From Candidatus Gastranaerophilales bacterium (GTDB taxonomy: Bacteria; Cyanobacteriota; Vampirovibrionia; Gastranaerophilales; Gastranaerophilaceae), in contig CALUSN010000006.1 in the NCBI GenBank assembly GCA_944323435.1, positions 1 to 33,473 on the forward strand: DNA of 33,473 bases, given 5' to 3'. Under the pieces are notes generated by a model. It was not told the origin of the DNA. It worked only from the letters and a program-made list of their open reading frames with translations, and ran no database searches. Within the stretch, counting starts at the first letter, position 1. Every line of letters begins with the position of its first letter. Positions 1 to 10,327 of the stretch are shown one piece after another. Made by a program: the position numbers and the translations under genes.

Positions 1-77
1 AGGGCAGAATTTGTTAGCGAGCTGTGCGAGCTTAGAAATTCGGGTGAGGGGTTAAACCAACCCATGGAGGTGTGTGC

Positions 78-3000
78 ATGATAAGCATTAACACCAACCT
101 GGGCTCTTTAATCGTCCAATCGAACTTAAAAAAATCCACAAACGCCCTTAATACCGCAATCGAGCGCATGACAACAGGTTTCAAAATCAACGGCGCTAAA
201 GACAACGCAGCAAACTACAGTATCGTAACCGATATGGATACGCAAATCCGTTCTCTAGAAGTTGCAGAGGATAATGCTAGTATGGCATTAGACCTGCTAT
301 CTACTGCGGATTCGACGTTGGAACTCGTTAACTCACATTTGCAGAGAATAAGGGATTTGGCAGTAACAGCTTCTAATGGAACTTATTCAAAACAATCAAG
401 AGATGCCGTGCAGGCAGAAATCGATGCAAGAAAAGCTGAAATTGAAAGAATAGTTGAAAATGCTGAATATAATGACATAAGGTTGTTTGACTCAATTCAA
501 ACTCTGGCAGATGAAGCTGCGGGTATAAACCTTTACAGTGAGATAGTCGCAGAAATTGATACTACATTTAAAGATCTGGGCATAACATCTGAATCTTTTG
601 AAATTTATGACGCGTCAGGAAGTCGTGTTGGAAGTTTTAGTATAAATCAGAATGATACATTGCAGGATTTTTTCGATATACTTCAAACAAATGGTTTAAC
701 TGCTTCAATCACAGACGGTGTTATAAGTATCGTATCGACAAATGGCGGATATATTCAGGGAGATCTTGCAGATGAGCTGGGTATCAGTACAAATACCAGA
801 ACAATTATTCAGGATACAAGTTACTCCTCAACATTAATGATTGGTCAAACGGTATCAACAACGGCGGATGTGTCTGCAACTCTTGCAGATTTGGGAATTT
901 CAAACAGTTCTTTTGTTATTGCGGATAAAAATAATAATGCCGTTAAAACGGTTCAGGTAAGTTCAACAGAAACAATAGGCGGACTTATAAATACACTGGC
1001 AGCAAACAGTATTACTGCTTCAATGACTAACGGGGTTTTGTCACTGACCTCGGCTGATAATTATACAATAACAGGGGAACTTGCAGGGATTTTAGGAATA
1101 ACGCAAAAAACAGAAACCATTGAATCATCTTATACCCAAACGCTAAATTTACCAATATCTCAGGCTCAGCCGGCTATGTCCGGTACAACAGGTGTTAATA
1201 CGGTAACTTCTGGAAAGTTTATGAAATCAGTTAGCAGGATTAATACTTCAGGTATCAAATCAGTATCAGATGTTCTTTCAGTGTGGGACACAAATTTTTA
1301 TAGAACAATATTAGAGGATCCGAATGCAACGGTTAAGATATCAACAACAGAGGACTTAGAACGTTTGCAGAATTGCAGTGGTACTGTCGAATGTAAACTT
1401 GTTCTTGCTAATAATATTAATGCTTCAAGTATTGACGATTGGGAACCGTTGAGCATTGCTAACTCTTTTGATGGCAATGGATATACTATCTCCAATTTAA
1501 CATCAACACAGGGTGCTTTTTTAGAGGTTAATGAACGGGATGATAATACTGATATAGAGATTAAAAATTTAGGACTTGTTAACATTAATATTGATAAAAC
1601 AGGTGATTATACAGGTACTGTGGGAGCTCTTTTTGATATAGGTTATTTGCAAAGCGATGCAGCTACTTTAGTAGACAATTGCTTTGTTACGGGTTCAATA
1701 ACAACAGGTGATGTATATATAGGAGGGATTACTGACACTCCTAATGATGATACAAAAATTTCTAATTGTTACACAGATCTGTCTATTCAATGGACTCCTG
1801 TAGATGAGGGTAATCCTTTTGGAGATATAGAAAATGTGCATATAGGAGGCATAGCTGGTATAATTAACGCAAATCGGAAAGTAGATATATCAAATTGCTA
1901 TTCTAATGCAAGAATTACAATGTCAGCCGGACAAGGTATAGCACAAATAGGCGGCATAGTAGGATTGGTCGGTTTTTCTTCTACTGCCGGTTTAAAAAAT
2001 GATATCGGGGAGGTTAATATATCAAATGTGAGATTTACAGGAACAATTAATACAGACAATATAAATGCAGCAGGTGGTATTATAGGTGCCTATATCTCTA
2101 AAAATACGTTAACGCTTTCAAATGCATATTTTGATGGAGCTTTTACAGGTTCAAAAAGCGACAAAGCAGGAACTATAGCAGGAGTATGTCCTACGCCGGC
2201 AAATGTAAATATATCTTCTGTGAACTCTGCAAATTCATCTAACCCGCTTATTTATAACTGGGGTGTAAATCAAATAAATTTAAATTCCACATTATCTGAT
2301 ATAGGTATAACTAATGGAGATATAATGATACTTAACAAAAATATAAAATCTGGTAATGATAGTTTTGATATTTATGATATTTATGGCTCAAAAACGATAT
2401 CAGAATTTTTTAGCGAATTGGAAGCGTACGATATAAAAGGAACCATAAGTAACCAAAATATAATTTTCTCGTGTGAAGGGGATTGGTATTTTGATAAAGA
2501 TGATACTTATATTATGAATACAGCATCTAATGCCTGGGTATTAATTTCCGATCATATAATAAATTATTCCACAATCTATTCCAACACAACATCTTCCAAC
2601 TTGTCACAAAATACTACACAAACAATAACCAATTCTTCTACACTTGGCAGTTTGGACGGGTATTCAAACGGTAATGGAGAAGTTGTTATTAATAAAGATG
2701 GAAAAGTATATGCAACAGTTACATTGAGCACAACAGACACTATCGCGGATTTGATTTCAAAACTTTCAAACTATGGTATAACAGGAACACTCCAGAACGG
2801 ACTGCTTTCATTTGAAGCTCCGGGAAATACAACCCTTGATTCAGCTAACGGAGGAAGCAACATATTAGATGTATTACATATAGGTTCGGCGCAGCATACA
2901 GAAAATATCTTATATAACAACTCTGGTTCAAAATATTTATCTTATTCCGACAATCAGGGTGGCTCTCAGTCGGGTGGAGATACAAAACCGCCGGAAAAAC

Positions 3001-3389
3001 CGGAATATAATGGCGGGATTATTTTTAACGTTATAGGCGGAAATCCTGATGATTTTATTCAAATTGATTTAAGCTTTGATTTTGTTCTTGACATTGACGT
3101 TTCAACAGATGAGACAGCCAGAATCGGAATAGAAAATATTGACCGCGCGCTTTCTGCAGTTCAAGCAAAACAAACAGAAATAGGCGCAGTAGAAAATCGG
3201 TTTGAATCAGTTCTGGAGGAAATATCTACCAAATATGAAAACCTTGTCTCCTCGCGTACAACCCTGCGTGATGCGGATATTGCGGAGGTTTCGAGCGAAT
3301 ATATCTGCAACCAGATTCTCCAGCAAGCTTCTGCAACCCTTCTTGCAACTGCCAATCAGACGCCTGCAATTGCACTGCAGTTGTTGTAG
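78..3389 (+). CDS. Giant flagellin with GLUG-type insert
   Basis: Structural subunit of the flagellar filament, exported by the flagellar type III system. The N-terminal ~138 residues (start MISINTNLGSL, then NSHLQRIRDLAVTASNG) and the C-terminal ~95 residues (IGAVENRF, LRDADIAEVSSEY, ending in ALQLL) are classic D0/D1 flagellin helices. Between them lie about 870 extra residues, giving 1103 aa against 270-500 for ordinary flagellins. The core has IN-like modules near residues 161-238 and 264-343, a GLUG-like beta-repeat region near 393-713 (FDGNGYTISNL, then repeated GGI(V/A)G with SNCY), two more IN-like modules near 736-808 and 853-935, and a Gly/Pro hinge near 958-980. I chose ATG 78 because GGAGG at 66-70 lies 7 nt upstream; a GTG at 72 would add two residues. 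The family is certain; the role of the insert is unknown. Confidence 0.93.
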   Translation: MISINTNLGSLIVQSNLKKSTNALNTAIERMTTGFKINGAKDNAANYSIVTDMDTQIRSLEVAEDNASMALDLLSTADSTLELVNSHLQRIRDLAVTASNGTYSKQSRDAVQAEIDARKAEIERIVENAEYNDIRLFDSIQTLADEAAGINLYSEIVAEIDTTFKDLGITSESFEIYDASGSRVGSFSINQNDTLQDFFDILQTNGLTASITDGVISIVSTNGGYIQGDLADELGISTNTRTIIQDTSYSSTLMIGQTVSTTADVSATLADLGISNSSFVIADKNNNAVKTVQVSSTETIGGLINTLAANSITASMTNGVLSLTSADNYTITGELAGILGITQKTETIESSYTQTLNLPISQAQPAMSGTTGVNTVTSGKFMKSVSRINTSGIKSVSDVLSVWDTNFYRTILEDPNATVKISTTEDLERLQNCSGTVECKLVLANNINASSIDDWEPLSIANSFDGNGYTISNLTSTQGAFLEVNERDDNTDIEIKNLGLVNINIDKTGDYTGTVGALFDIGYLQSDAATLVDNCFVTGSITTGDVYIGGITDTPNDDTKISNCYTDLSIQWTPVDEGNPFGDIENVHIGGIAGIINANRKVDISNCYSNARITMSAGQGIAQIGGIVGLVGFSSTAGLKNDIGEVNISNVRFTGTINTDNINAAGGIIGAYISKNTLTLSNAYFDGAFTGSKSDKAGTIAGVCPTPANVNISSVNSANSSNPLIYNWGVNQINLNSTLSDIGITNGDIMILNKNIKSGNDSFDIYDIYGSKTISEFFSELEAYDIKGTISNQNIIFSCEGDWYFDKDDTYIMNTASNAWVLISDHIINYSTIYSNTTSSNLSQNTTQTITNSSTLGSLDGYSNGNGEVVINKDGKVYATVTLSTTDTIADLISKLSNYGITGTLQNGLLSFEAPGNTTLDSANGGSNILDVLHIGSAQHTENILYNNSGSKYLSYSDNQGGSQSGGDTKPPEKPEYNGGIIFNVIGGNPDDFIQIDLSFDFVLDIDVSTDETARIGIENIDRALSAVQAKQTEIGAVENRFESVLEEISTKYENLVSSRTTLRDADIAEVSSEYICNQILQQASATLLATANQTPAIALQLL

Positions 3390-3747: not shown

Positions 3748-3774
3748 CTTCTCCTCCAAGAGAAGTTTTTTTTT
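3748..3774 (+). terminator. Intrinsic terminator, plus strand
   Basis: A 6-bp stem CTTCTC / GAGAAG with a 6-nt loop is followed by nine T residues. It would end transcription from the flagellin side and abuts the stop codon of the convergent DnaJ-like gene. No T-run follows the hairpin on the minus strand. Confidence 0.75.
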
Positions 3775-4795
3775 AGCTTAATTTCTGAATCTTTTTATAT
3801 AAATCAACAACTTCTTTTGTCATATTTTTGGGAATAACTATTTTAATTTTTGCGTTTAAATCACTGTAGCCGGAGGTTTTCGGCAACCCCATTTGTTTAA
3901 GTCTCAACGACTGTCCGCTTGAAACTCCGGCAGGAATTTTAATATTTATTTTCCCATGCAAAGTGGCTATTTCTTTAGAACAACCCAGAACAGCCTCAGG
4001 AGGAGTTATTTCTACTTCTTTTACAAGATTTTCTCCATCAAAATCATATTCGCTGTCTTTAAAGTGAACTACAAAATACAAATCGCCTTTATTGCCGTAA
4101 GCATCAGATTTTCCCTCGCCTTTAAGACGAACTTTTTTACCTTCAGTGATTCCCTTCGGTAATTTTACTTTTACGGTTTTGGGGTGTGATACTATACCAG
4201 TCCCGCCGCAATTTGAGCAGTATCCGTTTCCGTTACACTGGGTGCACTTTTCTATATCATTAAATGTAACTGATATTGGTTTTCCGTCAAAAATTTCTTT
4301 TGCTGTCACATTAAGATTTTTAGTTATATCTAAGTCTTCAGGCTTTGGTTGTCTTGTTCTTTTCTGTCCTGCAGAGCCGCCCCCTCCGGTAAAATCAAAA
4401 CCTCCGTAATTGCGTCCGGCTCTCTGGTTTCCCATATTTCCCATCATATCGCCGAATAAAGAACTGAAAAAGTCTGAGAAGCCGCTTCCGCCGAAATCAA
4501 AGCTTTGAGCCCCGCCCTGATTAAAATTAAAACTGAAGTTTTCAAATCCGGGAGGAGGGGTATAATCTGCCCCGCCCTGCCAGTTAGAGCCCAAACTGTC
4601 GTAACGCTGCCGTTTCGCTTTATCTGATAAAACTTCATAAGCTTCGTTTATGTCTTTGAATTTCTCTTCAGCTTCTTTTGTTTTATTTACGTCAGGATGA
4701 TATTTTCTTGCAAGTTTCCGGTATGCGGACTTAATTGCTGCAGCGTCAGCATCTCTTGAAACTCCGAGTATTTCATAATAATCTTTATATTTCAT
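3773..4795 (-). CDS. DnaJ-family co-chaperone with half zinc finger
   Basis: Hsp40 co-chaperone expected to stimulate DnaK ATPase and deliver clients in the cytoplasm. The J domain covers residues 1-68 with the invariant HPD at 33-35. A Gly/Phe-rich linker runs from about 72 to 145. The C-terminal substrate-binding beta domains follow from about 155 to 335. The zinc region is reduced: only CTQCNGNG and CSNCGGTG (Cys 184, 187, 193, 196) remain, where DnaJ has four CxxCxGxG motifs. The protein is 340 aa, shorter than DnaJ (~375) and nearer to CbpA, which has no zinc finger at all. The start [12 protein letters not shown] is the family's normal N-terminus. No grpE or dnaK lies nearby, so this is probably an accessory Hsp40. 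Confidence 0.9.
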
Positions 4796-4924: not shown

Positions 4925-6010
4925 ATGGATATAAAAAAGATATTGTTTAAAACTAATTCTATAGATGTGGAGAAAGCTCTTCCGGATGCACTTGTGCTTT
5001 GTTCAAAAGACGGAAAAATTCAATGGGTTAATGATGCTGCTGCAGAAATTTTTGAAACCTCAAAAATGCATTTGTTAACCTCAAAAATTTCTGATTTTAT
5101 TGAAAATCCTGTTAATCTTATCAACAATTCTATTATTATGCATCGCCCTGTTATAACAAAAAAAATTGACAGGGAAGTTTATTTTGATATGACAGCCCGC
5201 GAAATTGAAGAGGGATATGTTTTAGATTTCAGAGATTCTTTTGTTCCGGAGCCTAAAGATGCTAACTGGTCGGAAAACAATAATGTGAATAGGGAAAAGA
5301 ATAAATTTTTGCTTAAACTGTCTAATGATTTAAAATCTCCGATTCAATCAATTGTAGGTTTTTCTCAGGCAATGGCAGACGGTCTGGGCGGTGAGTTGAA
5401 CGCACAACAGGAAAAATATATTAAAATAATTAATAAAAATTCTTCTGATTTAATGTATTTTATAGACAAGCTGCTGGAGCTTTCACAAACAGAGTCTGAT
5501 TTAAAAAAGCCAGATAAAAAAATTTTTGATATCTTAAGTCTTGTACAGTCCGTAGTAAAATTCAATGAACAACTTTTTTCCGATAAAGAAATAAAGATTA
5601 GTATATGTACACAGGAAAACTTTAGTAAAACAATTACAAATGATGACGAAATAATTAAACAAATTGTTCAGAATTTGTTAGAAGTTATATACAAAGCAAT
5701 TGATATGGGAGAAGTTACTATTACACTTTCAAATCCGGATGATGAATTTATTTCTTCAAAGAATCTTACACCGGCAAGTTATACACTTATAAATTTTGCA
5801 AGCAATTCTTTACTTCTTGCTGAAAATGATTTAGAATGTATGTTTGATCCTTATAAAATAATTGATACTTCAAACAAAAAAAATATTTTAAGAGCAATTA
5901 TTCTGTCCGGAGTAAAGAATATGGTTCAATCAATTGGCGGTATTGTCTGGGTGGAATCTAAAATTTTAAAAAATACAACTTTCAATGTATTAATTCCTGA
6001 TAAGCGTTAG
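4925..6010 (+). CDS. PAS/histidine-kinase-like protein lacking catalytic residues
   Basis: The fold of a soluble PAS sensor histidine kinase is recognisable. A PAS-like domain covers about 15-105 (ALVLCSKDGKIQWVNDAAAEIF). An HisKA-like dimerisation helix follows at about 125-190 (FLLKLSNDLKSPIQSIVGFS), then a HATPase-like domain at about 205-359 ending GGIVWVES...NTTFNVLIP. The phosphoacceptor His is replaced by Asn134 (codon AAT, 5324-5326), where the family has SHELRTP. The N-box Asn is replaced by Val (NLLEVIYKAI for NLLSNAIKF). The DTGxGI loop reads FASNSLLL and the GTGLGL loop is absent. The frame is intact, so it is probably a pseudokinase acting by binding rather than phosphotransfer. 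No response regulator is adjacent. It lies 20 bp before the ABC ATPase gene, probably in one operon. No membrane segment is seen. Confidence 0.85.
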   Translation: MDIKKILFKTNSIDVEKALPDALVLCSKDGKIQWVNDAAAEIFETSKMHLLTSKISDFIENPVNLINNSIIMHRPVITKKIDREVYFDMTAREIEEGYVLDFRDSFVPEPKDANWSENNNVNREKNKFLLKLSNDLKSPIQSIVGFSQAMADGLGGELNAQQEKYIKIINKNSSDLMYFIDKLLELSQTESDLKKPDKKIFDILSLVQSVVKFNEQLFSDKEIKISICTQENFSKTITNDDEIIKQIVQNLLEVIYKAIDMGEVTITLSNPDDEFISSKNLTPASYTLINFASNSLLLAENDLECMFDPYKIIDTSNKKNILRAIILSGVKNMVQSIGGIVWVESKILKNTTFNVLIPDKR

Positions 6011-6030: not shown

Positions 6031-7059
6031 ATGAGCGGTGTATTGCTGAAAAATCTTGTAAAGAGTTATGACGGAACTAAAAATGTAATAGACAATATTA
6101 ATCTTGAAATCAGGGATAAAGAATTTATTGTGCTGGTCGGCTCTTCAGGCTGCGGAAAGTCTACAATTTTAAGACTTATTGCCGGGCTTGAAGAAATTAC
6201 TGCCGGTGAAATTTTGATTAATGAAAGAGTTGTTAACAATATTCATCCAAAAGACAGAGATATTGCGTTTGTTTTTCAGAGTTATGCACTATATCCGCAT
6301 ATGAGCGTGTATGATAACATTGCATTTGGTTTAAAAATGCGTAAGTATCCGAAATCTGAAATTTATACAAAAGTCAGGGAGGTTGCAAAATCACTTAATT
6401 TGGACGAGCTTTTGGACAGAAAACCCCGGCAGCTTTCCGGCGGTCAAAGACAGAGAGTTGCACTCGGGCGGGCTATTGTAAGAAATCCTCAAGTTTTTTT
6501 GATGGACGAGCCGCTTTCAAATCTGGACGCAAACTTGCGTATACAAATGCGTTCCGAAATAAAAAAACTGCATCAAAAACTTCAAACAACATTTATCTAC
6601 GTTACCCACGATCAAACAGAAGCTTTGACAATGGGTGACAGAATTGTTGTTTTAGATAAAGGAAAAATTCAACAGGCTGATACTCCTGATATTATTTATA
6701 ACAAGCCTAAAAATAAATTTGTAGCAGGATTTATAGGGCAGATGAATTTTATTGATACCAATATAGAAAATGGAAGGTTTAAAATTCTGGATAAGGAGTT
6801 TTATATTCAAAAAGATATACAGGGGGCTGTAACTGTCGCTATAAGAGCCGAAAAGATGATTAACGGAAATGAGGTAATATCTGTTTGTCCTGAAATTATT
6901 GAAATGACTGGCGGAGAAAGAATTATTTATTTTAACCTGAACGGGAGTAAATGCTCTGCAAGACTTCCTCTAGATTATCCGATAGGAGAATCTGTTCAGT
7001 TGAAAATTTCTGTGAATGACATGTATTTCTTTGATAAGAAAACAGGAGAAGTTATTTAA
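6031..7059 (+). CDS. MalK/UgpC-type ABC transporter ATPase
   Basis: ATP-binding subunit of an ABC importer of the carbohydrate type, acting at the inner face of the cytoplasmic membrane. Walker A GSSGCGKST is at residues 37-45, the Q-loop is VFQSYALYPHM, the signature is LSGGQRQRVALGRA near 135, Walker B is VFLMDEPLSNLD, and the H-loop is VTHDQTEA. A TOBE-like C-terminal domain begins near 240 (VAIRAEKM). The length of 342 aa is slightly short for MalK (~370). No permease or substrate-binding gene is near, so it may be a shared ATPase for several permeases, as MsmK or MsiK is in other bacteria. It follows the pseudo-histidine kinase by 20 bp and precedes the AsmA gene by one base. The substrate cannot be told from the sequence. 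Confidence 0.9.
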   Translation: MSGVLLKNLVKSYDGTKNVIDNINLEIRDKEFIVLVGSSGCGKSTILRLIAGLEEITAGEILINERVVNNIHPKDRDIAFVFQSYALYPHMSVYDNIAFGLKMRKYPKSEIYTKVREVAKSLNLDELLDRKPRQLSGGQRQRVALGRAIVRNPQVFLMDEPLSNLDANLRIQMRSEIKKLHQKLQTTFIYVTHDQTEALTMGDRIVVLDKGKIQQADTPDIIYNKPKNKFVAGFIGQMNFIDTNIENGRFKILDKEFYIQKDIQGAVTVAIRAEKMINGNEVISVCPEIIEMTGGERIIYFNLNGSKCSARLPLDYPIGESVQLKISVNDMYFFDKKTGEVI

Positions 7060-7060
7060 T

Positions 7061-10000
7061 ATGAAAAAAAAATATAGAAATTTAATAATTACAGTAGTTA
7101 TTATACTTGCATTTTGTGTATCGGTTTGTTTTATTCCGATTGACGCAACACGTTTTATACCTTCAATTGAAAAACAAGTTACAAAAGATTTAGGAATTAA
7201 TATACATATAGAACGTTTAATTTTGCGTTTAGGTCCGTCATTAAAAGTAAAAGCACCTGCTATGCATATTATGTATGAGGACGGACAAAAATTCGGACAG
7301 TTTACAAATGTAAAATTTTTTATTCCCTGGTCATCACTGTTTAAAAATGAATTCATAATAAAAAGATTATATGCAGATAAATTTGTTCTGAAATTAAAGT
7401 CAGATGATAAATACCTGAATAAATTAACAGCAAAATTAAATTCCAAAGATTTTGACGAGGTTCCGAATTTGAGACTAAAGGGGTACAGCATTTCGTACTG
7501 TGATTGTGATTCTAAAAAGCAATATAAATTAAGCGGAACCGCTTTAAACTTAACTAAAGTTGCAAGTTATCAAAATTTTCAGCTTAAAACTTTGGGAGAA
7601 TTTTTTATAAATGATAAGAAATATATTTCCTATGACATATCAGTACTTCCTAACATAAAAATACCTGCGAAAAGTTTTCAGTTTGATATTATATCATTCC
7701 TGAACCAGATGGAAGATTTGGATTTTTATTCCGACATAATTGCTGATTTAAAATTATATAGCACTCTGAGCGGTGAGACACAGATTTCGGGTCTTGTTAA
7801 CATTGATAACATTTCTGTACTTGATCCGGTCAGAAAATCACCTAAAAGTTTTATTTATTTGACTTTTTTAGGCGATAAAGTCGGAGTCTTATCTAATATA
7901 TATGCGGCAAAAGATAAAAGGGTATATATTGACGGTGTTATAAATAATTCAAAGAAAAAAAGCGTTGATTTAAAAGTAAAAACAGATGAAATAAAAATAC
8001 AGGATTTATATCCAAAAATTAAACTTATGGCTGATTTATCACGCTTCAAAGCAATAAGTACAATAGACGGAAAAGTAAAAGCGGATTTTTCGGTAAAAGG
8101 CGATTTCAGTAAGCTGAAATCCTCCGGCTTTTTGACTGTAAAAGAAGGTACTATCAAAGCAAACGGTATTGATATAAACAATATTTCTTCAGAAATAGAT
8201 TTTTCAAATAATATTATAAATATTACAAATGCAGTCGGCTATGTAAATAATGCGCCTATAATGGTAAAGGGCAGTATAAATAAAAACATTGATATTGAGC
8301 TTTTGATGAACAAGGTTGAGTTAAAACACCTCCTGCCTTCATCTCTTGGTATAAAAAGCGGCATTGCTTCCATTGTTGCCAATTTAAGCGGTACACCGGA
8401 AAATATAATTCATAAAGAAAATATACAGATAGAAAATTTTAAATGTACAAAAAATAAAAACAGCCTTGCATTTTCAAATCTTAAAATTGACACGAATAAA
8501 GAAAATACTGCTTATGTCAACAATATAACAATCAATACAGATAAAACCGAAATGATTAAATTGCCTCTTTTAAAATTGTATATAGACAGAGATGCTATAA
8601 CCGTTCCGGAAACGAACATTTTTATGCCGAATTCAAAATTAAAAGCAAAGGCAGATATAACAAATTACAATACAAAGGATTTGTCCTTTAATCTGAGTTT
8701 AAACGGTTTTATAAATTCCCGTGACATAAAATGTATTAAGTCAAATTTTGCGGCATATCCGGTTAAACTGTCAGTAAACGGAGACAGCAAAGTCCAAAAT
8801 CTTTGGGTTCAGATTTTAATGGAAAAGGCTTTAATTTTAGATGAGCCGGCTATAATAAATGTTGTTTCCAGAATAGAAGGCAATAATGCTAAGATTGAAG
8901 ATTTAAGCATTTCATCTTTTACCGGAAAACTATCAAATGAATTTAAAGCAAATCTTAAAGGGCAAAAGAAGCTTATAGTTTCCGGAAATATTGAGAGTTT
9001 GACAAAACCTGTCCTGAAAAATATCAGAATTTATATTCCGCAGCAGTTGAATATTTCGTTTTTTAACACTATTGCTCAGCTAAAAGGCGACTTGTTTATA
9101 AACGGAAGTATCGACAAGCCTGAAATTGTCGGGCAATTAACTGCACAAAACATAATTAATCAGTTTTTACAGCTTGCGGTAAACAACTTAACAATAGATT
9201 TTAATAAGTCTATTGCAATCTTAAATGCCCCGCAATTTAAGATTGGAGATTCTGTTATGGGTATAAATTCTACTCTCTCTACAGATATTTCACGCGGGGT
9301 GGTTGTAAAAAATTTAAATATAAAATCTAAATATCTGAATACAGATACATTTTTAATGTACAAAGACAGCCCTGCATTTAACTTTATGCCTGTTACAATC
9401 AATCAGGGCAGCATATATTCTGAAAAAGTACTGGCAAATATATATAATTCTCCGCTTTATCTTTCAGCATTGTCCGCTGATATAGCTTTGAAAGACAATG
9501 TTTTATCCTTAAGCAATATTTCTTCTGAATTGTTTAACGGCAAATTAGCCGGAGCATTTGATTTTAATCTTAAGGATGAACATTTTAATTCTTCAATACA
9601 GGCACGAGGTGTAAGTGCGGCACCGATATTTGACATAATTTCAACAAGGAAAGATTCCGTGAGCGGAATTATGGATTTTGATACAATATTAGGCGGAAAT
9701 TTAAGTTCAAAGCAATCTTTAAACGGCAAAATAAAGTTTATTGTAAATAACGGCAGAATGGGAACCCTGGGAAAACTTGAACATTTATTGTATGCCCAGA
9801 ACGTAATTGCCGATAATATGCTCAGGACATCTCTAAGCGTTGTAACAAAAGCAATTATATTGAAAGATACCGGCTTATTTAAATACCTGCGGGGAGATAT
9901 AGAACTCAAAGACGGAATAGCTGATATTGCATTTTTACAATCGCAGGGACCTCTTATGTCATTGTTTATAAAAGGTGCGTACAATCCAGATACAGATTAT

Positions 10001-10327
10001 GCGAAGCTTATTATTTTAGGACGTTTGTCTGATGAAATAATATCCGGACTTGGTGTTTTTGGAGATTTTTCACTTAATAAACTTATGATAATGCTGACAG
10101 GAGAAGAAAATAAGTATAATCTTTTGCCGCAGGATTTTGAGAATCTGCCGCAGCTGCCGACTAAATATACAAAAGAATTCAGGAGTGTCATCAATGGTAT
10201 TGTTGATAAGCCGAGTTCTGTTATTATGTTTAACTGGGTTTCTTATTCCGAAAAATCGTACAGACAAAAGGATGTTCCGATGACAAATATAAAAATTCCT
10301 GATTTTATTGAATCATTGCCAAACTAA
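7061..10327 (+). CDS. AsmA-family envelope protein
   Basis: Large AsmA/TamB-like protein of 1088 aa, anchored in the inner membrane and projecting into the periplasm; relatives are thought to carry or guide lipids to the outer membrane. An N-terminal signal-anchor lies near residues 8-25 (LIITVVIILAFCVSVCF). It is followed by the AsmA N-terminal pattern (IEKQVTKDLGINIHIERLIL, then LKVKAPAMHI), long beta-rich repeats, and a C-terminal AsmA-like segment (GKIKFIVNNGRMGTLGKLEH ... FKYLRGDIELKDGIADI). ATG 7061 is preferred over an in-frame ATG at 7016, which would run 44 bp into the ABC gene. GGAG at 7045-7048 precedes it and the ABC stop codon is one base upstream, suggesting coupling. Its presence implies a two-membrane envelope. 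Confidence 0.85.
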   Translation: MKKKYRNLIITVVIILAFCVSVCFIPIDATRFIPSIEKQVTKDLGINIHIERLILRLGPSLKVKAPAMHIMYEDGQKFGQFTNVKFFIPWSSLFKNEFIIKRLYADKFVLKLKSDDKYLNKLTAKLNSKDFDEVPNLRLKGYSISYCDCDSKKQYKLSGTALNLTKVASYQNFQLKTLGEFFINDKKYISYDISVLPNIKIPAKSFQFDIISFLNQMEDLDFYSDIIADLKLYSTLSGETQISGLVNIDNISVLDPVRKSPKSFIYLTFLGDKVGVLSNIYAAKDKRVYIDGVINNSKKKSVDLKVKTDEIKIQDLYPKIKLMADLSRFKAISTIDGKVKADFSVKGDFSKLKSSGFLTVKEGTIKANGIDINNISSEIDFSNNIINITNAVGYVNNAPIMVKGSINKNIDIELLMNKVELKHLLPSSLGIKSGIASIVANLSGTPENIIHKENIQIENFKCTKNKNSLAFSNLKIDTNKENTAYVNNITINTDKTEMIKLPLLKLYIDRDAITVPETNIFMPNSKLKAKADITNYNTKDLSFNLSLNGFINSRDIKCIKSNFAAYPVKLSVNGDSKVQNLWVQILMEKALILDEPAIINVVSRIEGNNAKIEDLSISSFTGKLSNEFKANLKGQKKLIVSGNIESLTKPVLKNIRIYIPQQLNISFFNTIAQLKGDLFINGSIDKPEIVGQLTAQNIINQFLQLAVNNLTIDFNKSIAILNAPQFKIGDSVMGINSTLSTDISRGVVVKNLNIKSKYLNTDTFLMYKDSPAFNFMPVTINQGSIYSEKVLANIYNSPLYLSALSADIALKDNVLSLSNISSELFNGKLAGAFDFNLKDEHFNSSIQARGVSAAPIFDIISTRKDSVSGIMDFDTILGGNLSSKQSLNGKIKFIVNNGRMGTLGKLEHLLYAQNVIADNMLRTSLSVVTKAIILKDTGLFKYLRGDIELKDGIADIAFLQSQGPLMSLFIKGAYNPDTDYAKLIILGRLSDEIISGLGVFGDFSLNKLMIMLTGEENKYNLLPQDFENLPQLPTKYTKEFRSVINGIVDKPSSVIMFNWVSYSEKSYRQKDVPMTNIKIPDFIESLPN

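Follow-up and report, generated by a model that had tools for sequence, protein, structure and literature searches.

Flagellin surface regions are hugely diverse, and few of them carry a domain of a known family. Gastranaerophilales are gut Melainabacteria, relatives of the cyanobacteria, and the beginning of a 33-kb contig in a 1.86-Mb draft genome of this order raises the question of whether a domain otherwise familiar from IgA1 proteases has been built into a true flagellin, and what a filament made from such a protein might be used for. The whole stretch of DNA that was analysed, 33,473 nucleotides, is referred to here as the window. An earlier note, made from the letters alone, had proposed that about 320 residues inside a flagellin encoded there read as GLUG-type repeats.

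To judge the gene itself, we examined its reading frame and both of its ends. The gene starts 77 bp into the contig, and the frame runs unbroken through 1,103 codons from the ATG at 78 to a stop at 3387-3389, giving a protein that passes the 1,000-aa mark used here for a giant flagellin. Both ends score far over their Pfam cut-offs (Flagellin_N, 114.8 bits against 26.6; Flagellin_C, 61.9 bits against 23), and Flagellin_N contains LQRIRDLAV at the TLR5-contact position, residue 88. Among NCBIfam models, the best flagellin model reaches 161.5 bits and the FlgL model TIGR02550 only 66.1, against a cut-off of 127.2, with the long flagellin models likewise falling below their own cut-offs on this protein. 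Judged by these matches, the gene is a bona fide bacterial flagellin, closer to the flagellin models than to those of FlgL. The features of the locus are collected in Table 1. Further along the window, a sensor kinase (4925-6010) and an ABC ATPase (6031-7059) lie beside a large protein (7061-10324) with a sub-threshold match to DUF748 (AsmA-like).

Table 1. Features at the flagellin locus, in window coordinates; residue numbers are those of the flagellin.
Feature	Position	Strand	Basis
Flagellin gene, 1,103 aa	78..3389	+	ORF and Pfam; NCBIfam flagellin models far above FlgL model
Ribosome-binding site GGAGG, 5' of the ATG at 78	66..70	+	Sequence reading
Flagellin_N (PF00669), residues 4-142, D0/D1 N-terminal helices	87..503	+	E 4.2e-33
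Exposed module array 1, residues about 150-392, Flagellin_IN-like repeats	525..1253	+	blastp against FliD
Predicted GLUG-type beta-solenoid domain, residues about 418-724	1329..2249	+	Domain HMM, AlphaFold, VIA-align
Exposed module array 2, residues about 725-1000	2250..3077	+	blastp against FliD
Flagellin_C (PF00700), residues 1018-1103, D1/D0 C-terminal helices	3129..3386	+	E 7.5e-17
dnaJ/cbpA-like gene, convergent neighbour of the flagellin (context only)	3773..4795	-	Pfam DnaJ and DnaJ_C

The motifs named in the earlier note are all present, FDGNGYTISNL at residue 464, GGIxG as GGIAG, GGIVG and GGIIG at 590, 625 and 666, and SNCY-type motifs (ISNCY/LSNAY) at 561, 604 and 680. The Pfam GLUG motif (PF07581), a model of 28 positions, stayed below its cut-off on the window protein (E 0.12, 13.3 bits against 20.5) and reached 13.7 bits when the whole genome was searched. 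A short-motif HMM made from GLUG repeats of this genome gave the insert 5.2 bits and its best shuffle 7.7. Since a 28-residue motif failed against both the cut-off and the shuffles, a test of the whole domain was needed. A domain-length HMM built from 25 GLUG-motif flagellins of relatives scored 107 bits on residues 418-724, with the top of 1,000 insert shuffles at 8.2. The GLUG profile search that had been suggested is thus positive at domain length and negative for the Pfam motif, and the GLUG-like stretch itself stands, with the homologous region running over residues 418-724 (1329-2249) instead of the 393-713 (1254-2214) first proposed.

Other comparisons place the domain in the same family. 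In blastp, the insert matched two bona fide GLUG flagellins that both pass PF07581 (L048 and L044) at E 2e-16. A six-row insert profile searched against the PDB retrieved IgA1 proteases of known structure, with matches at E 1.9e-22 and 2.3e-19, along with 3n6z, the whole set lying between E 1.9e-22 and 2.3e-18. Both profiles contain GLUG sequences by choice, and the six-row one also the window sequence itself; the PDB chains are in neither. A phmmer search of PDB sequences with the insert alone gave no meaningful match. These results identify residues 418-724 as a divergent GLUG domain of the IgA1-protease type, wider than the Pfam motif. The dipeptide HE, and hence HExxH, is absent from the whole window protein, which also has no Pfam match to Peptidase_M26; lacking HExxH, the insert falls outside the M26 IgA1 protease and flagellinolysin classes.

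The fold was predicted with AlphaFold from the insert and five relatives, and the result was an all-beta solenoid (mean pLDDT 72.7, pTM 0.78, ends below 50), in agreement with the beta-helix anticipated earlier. A full-length flagellin model made from three sequences was poor (pLDDT 50) and was set aside. In the PDB, the top six Foldseek matches were IgA1 proteases and 3n6z (E 1.1e-7), the latter a putative member of the same enzymes. VIA-align gave Z scores of 25.4-27.9 to the IgA1-protease beta-helices, with 27.9 for both 7uvk and 6xja, and 18.3 for the best other beta-helix, a non-GLUG fold. The insert is accordingly modelled as a right-handed beta-helix of the GLUG/M26 IgA1-protease type between the flagellin halves. 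An enzymatic reading from polysaccharide lyases and tailspikes was rejected, their VIA-align scores (Z 16-18) being general beta-helix matches only. A viral fold library was also discarded as a functional clue; its top match was a phage protein named putative IgA1 protease, the others were phage proteins and giant-virus beta-helices, and none added functional information. A search of viral contigs revealed no relative of either the window insert or a second GLUG flagellin described below. Beta-helices are common as scaffolds, and no particular ligand follows from the fold.

The regions flanking the beta-helix are shared with a filament cap. The window genome encodes a complete FliD of 6,137 aa in one frame (G000:C158, L039 from 2836, L123 to 4235), with a FliD_N start, a FliD_C end, about 13 GLUG-domain matches in its translated part and about 40 GLUG motif matches, as well as two further FliDs of 590 and 1,927 aa. 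In the translated open frame of the giant FliD (L039 part), array 1 of the window flagellin matches residues 888-1084 (blastp E 9.6e-25) and array 2 residues 4642-4865 (E 3.7e-20), at only about 30% identity, and the two arrays resemble each other (E 3.8e-11). Across the order there is usually one FliD of about 480-640 aa per genome, and many genomes, mostly in three genera, have additional FliD_N frames of about 1,080 to 6,603 aa; G003, for example, encodes a 4,649-aa FliD with both ends. By these similarities, filament and cap draw on one module toolbox, and modules may have been exchanged between FliD and flagellin. Two still longer open frames with GLUG matches, of 11,061 and 8,905 aa, occur in G226:C5 (L116) and G267:C1 (L117), each paired divergently with another large frame whose start is similar; the scanned part of the G226 frame has Flagellin_IN and Glug matches over cut-off.

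Because both module types are also found in oversized FliD caps, extracellular recognition appears to be the most likely use of the insert. The variable middle of flagellins is exposed on the filament and accepts large inserts (PMC6248924, PMC7018530, PMC5595980), so the beta-helix should face outward. In the mechanism we envisage, two Flagellin_IN-like arrays with the GLUG beta-helix between them have taken the place of the D2/D3-type surface region; the helical ends would pass through the flagellar export channel and co-assemble like those of any flagellin, and the beta-helix would fold after export, pointing outward from the filament. Displayed in thousands of copies, with related modules for binding both on the filament and at the tip, it could give the flagellum an adhesive or ligand-binding role, as a multivalent surface for mucus, host or microbial ligands. 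There are precedents for binding by such proteins. Mucin and mucus components are ligands of flagellins and FliD in other bacteria (PMC4009794), and the N-terminal domain of the Streptococcus pneumoniae IgA1 protease, which consists mostly of this beta-helix, touches the IgA1 Fab (PMC7695701) and behaves as a moving gate (PMC7695701, PMC9637739). Taken as a whole, the explanation that this is a real flagellin with a beta-helix insert, serving a ligand-binding flagellum, seems to us somewhat more probable than the sum of its competitors.

A mechanical role, in which the beta-helices bind no ligand but pack against one another at the surface and make the filament thicker or stiffer, has a real but minor share of the probability. 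Thickening or stiffening has already been proposed for other giant flagellins, those of marine gamma-proteobacteria form filaments at least 30 nm wide (PMC6248924), and the window protein is longer than 1,000 aa, while a related GLUG flagellin reaches 2,081 aa. However, the same modules occur in FliD caps, outside the filament lattice, which argues against a purely structural role within that lattice. In addition, GLUG flagellins range from about 550 to 2,085 aa, and one and the same genome can encode them together with plain flagellins of less than 300 aa, unlike what a conserved lattice contact would suggest.

In G084, an assembly of 10 contigs, an 818-aa GLUG flagellin is convergent with the orthologue of the window dnaJ, beyond which come the same kinase and ABC-transporter genes; the flagellin's N-terminal core is 57% identical to that of the window protein, and its GLUG/exposed part 27%. 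A second GLUG flagellin in the window genome (G000:C2:36752-38437) has both flagellin ends and four GLUG stretches over cut-off (46.7 bits), and its locus is syntenic, with a glmU-like neighbour, in the relatives examined, five genomes in all. Pairwise dN/dS among the five orthologues was 0.10-0.28 for the GLUG part and 0.03-0.15 for the core ends, rough values that are safe only for a qualitative reading because dS is near saturation. The GLUG part of this flagellin is under purifying constraint, yet it changes faster than the core. One orthologue (G085:C7:101607-103290, with L087) is split into two frames of 226 and 358 aa, for which a pseudogene, a sequencing error and a switchable frame are candidate explanations. 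Our analysis most likely points to a fast-evolving, purifyingly selected beta-helix that would bind ligands on both filament and cap.

Rapid change of the exposed part, as in the syntenic G084 copy, would also be expected of an interface with host immunity, either a fast-changing antigenic or shielding coat or an immunoglobulin binder, which would let the bacterium cope with secretory IgA and TLR5 in the gut. The Fab contact of the related IgA1 protease domain would fit this, as would the TLR5-contact motif kept in the window flagellin, as reported for other Melainabacteria flagellins (PMC3787301). Nevertheless, the window protein has neither an IgA-protease catalytic domain nor HExxH, and a scan of contigs from close relatives, in which flagellin matches came only from Gastranaerophilales, also detected non-flagellin GLUG proteins in one Sedimentisphaerales MAG and one Firmicutes MAG. 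Quick divergence alone is no proof of immune selection, and dN/dS is well below 1. We regard an immune function as unlikely, slightly more so than the mechanical one.

To see how widespread the fusion is, we used a 585-position model built from 14 GLUG flagellins. At E <= 1e-65 it matched 40 of 382 genomes of the class, all in three families of the order Gastranaerophilales; the matches were taken as flagellin-GLUG fusions from the listed spans, and a few are split or cut at a contig edge. An order-level sample contained any Flagellin_N in 97 of 241 genomes and, among the matches listed, fused matches in roughly 28, and in a phylum sample the fused matches were confined to the window's family. 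In a tree computed from flagellin cores alone, the inserts left out, 44 GLUG flagellins, including that of the window, fall on the same side of a branch (support 70/96), which is compatible with a single origin but does not establish one, as the tree held only ten plain flagellins. By this survey, GLUG flagellins constitute a recurrent flagellin class within Gastranaerophilales, and the same insert is indeed found in related flagellins, as the earlier note had wished to see surveyed. A much larger example lies on the minus strand of G032:C16 (L120:5612-11866); at about 2,081 aa it far exceeds the two giant flagellins studied in PMC6248924, and it has both Flagellin_N and Flagellin_C as well as eight GLUG stretches that pass the cut-off.

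The window genome has eight Flagellin_N loci and encodes FliG, so that a motor component exists. Elsewhere in this genome (G000:C46:1-452, L042), a contig edge truncates a flagellin start whose first 95 bp share 92% identity with the start of the window gene, suggesting that it may be a close paralogue. With so many loci, the window gene could be a minor or silent copy drifting after recombination with FliD-like modules, its decoration having little function. Most relatives lack a close orthologue of the window copy; among dnaJ loci (n=30, besides L124), several of them short, a flagellin adjoins only the window and G084 copies. Promoters were also considered. When eight upstream regions were scanned, no sigma-28-like promoter upstream of GLUG flagellins beat the shuffles, the window gene having 77 bp upstream; a perfect site of the sigma-28 type, TAAA-N15-GCCGATAA, was present in one of the eight, upstream of the plain flagellin L002. 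A sigma-28 promoter was accordingly dropped as evidence of co-regulation, and GLUG flagellins may be under other control. Drift is nonetheless improbable given the intact 1,103-codon frame with its ribosome-binding site, the synteny and constraint of the second GLUG flagellin, and the spread of the class over 40 genomes.

That the assembly had joined a flagellin to some other gene, a possibility which the earlier note had itself raised, might be suspected where a contig begins 77 bp ahead of the gene, another flagellin is truncated by a contig edge, and the repeated sequences of flagellin ends can mislead assemblers, but it is practically ruled out by the G084 gene at the same dnaJ/kinase/ABC locus and by independent genomes, with the window core grouping among GLUG flagellins in the insert-free tree and the modules too different from FliD, at about 30% identity, to be copied read-through.

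The favoured reading, a ligand-binding flagellum, can be extended to a modular receptor-binding organelle, in which GLUG and Flagellin_IN-like modules are exchanged among several flagellins and giant FliDs and equip every cell with filaments and tips of differing ligand specificities; we offer this larger version tentatively, as a possibility. Flagella may serve as binding surfaces as well as propellers, and here a lineage-wide flagellin class carries a surface domain from a solved family, with the modules recurring in outsized caps. If the domains bind ligands, this would be a natural case of a swimming organelle that serves in the gut as a multivalent receptor.

Melainabacteria have already been reported to be flagellated and to have TLR5-type flagellins (PMC3787301), and both flagellins with foreign (protease) domains and flagellins of more than 1,000 aa are known. 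Among the open-access papers searched we found no report of GLUG flagellins, beta-helix flagellins or giant GLUG caps, although the architecture may be listed without comment in protein-architecture databases or in subscription literature. GLUG inserts, which the earlier note considered not standard in flagellins, recur within Gastranaerophilales.

The beta-helix of the M26 IgA1 proteases (6xja/6xjb, 7uvk/7uvl, 3n6z) belongs by profile to the same family as the window insert and is its closest fold (Z 25-28), and the two share the entry motif LVLANNIN..W.P....FDGNGYTISNL; unlike those enzymes, the window domain is without a protease and is inserted between flagellin assembly helices. The giant FliD of the same genome has both exposed module types in common with the window flagellin, but its FliD_N and FliD_C ends make it a cap and not a filament subunit. 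The giant flagellins of Oceanospirillales (PMC6248924) resemble the window protein in exceeding 1,000 aa and in having a large surface insert between the D0/D1 halves; the DE/DX inserts of the former are reported to have matches in flagellins alone, whereas the window insert is common to IgA1 proteases and to its own FliD. Flagellinolysins (PMC5595980) likewise carry a foreign folded domain in the hypervariable region, which in their case is a gluzincin metalloprotease and in the window flagellin a predicted beta-helix without a protease motif. With the GLUG flagellins, a second kind of flagellin insert of known family joins that of the protease flagellins.
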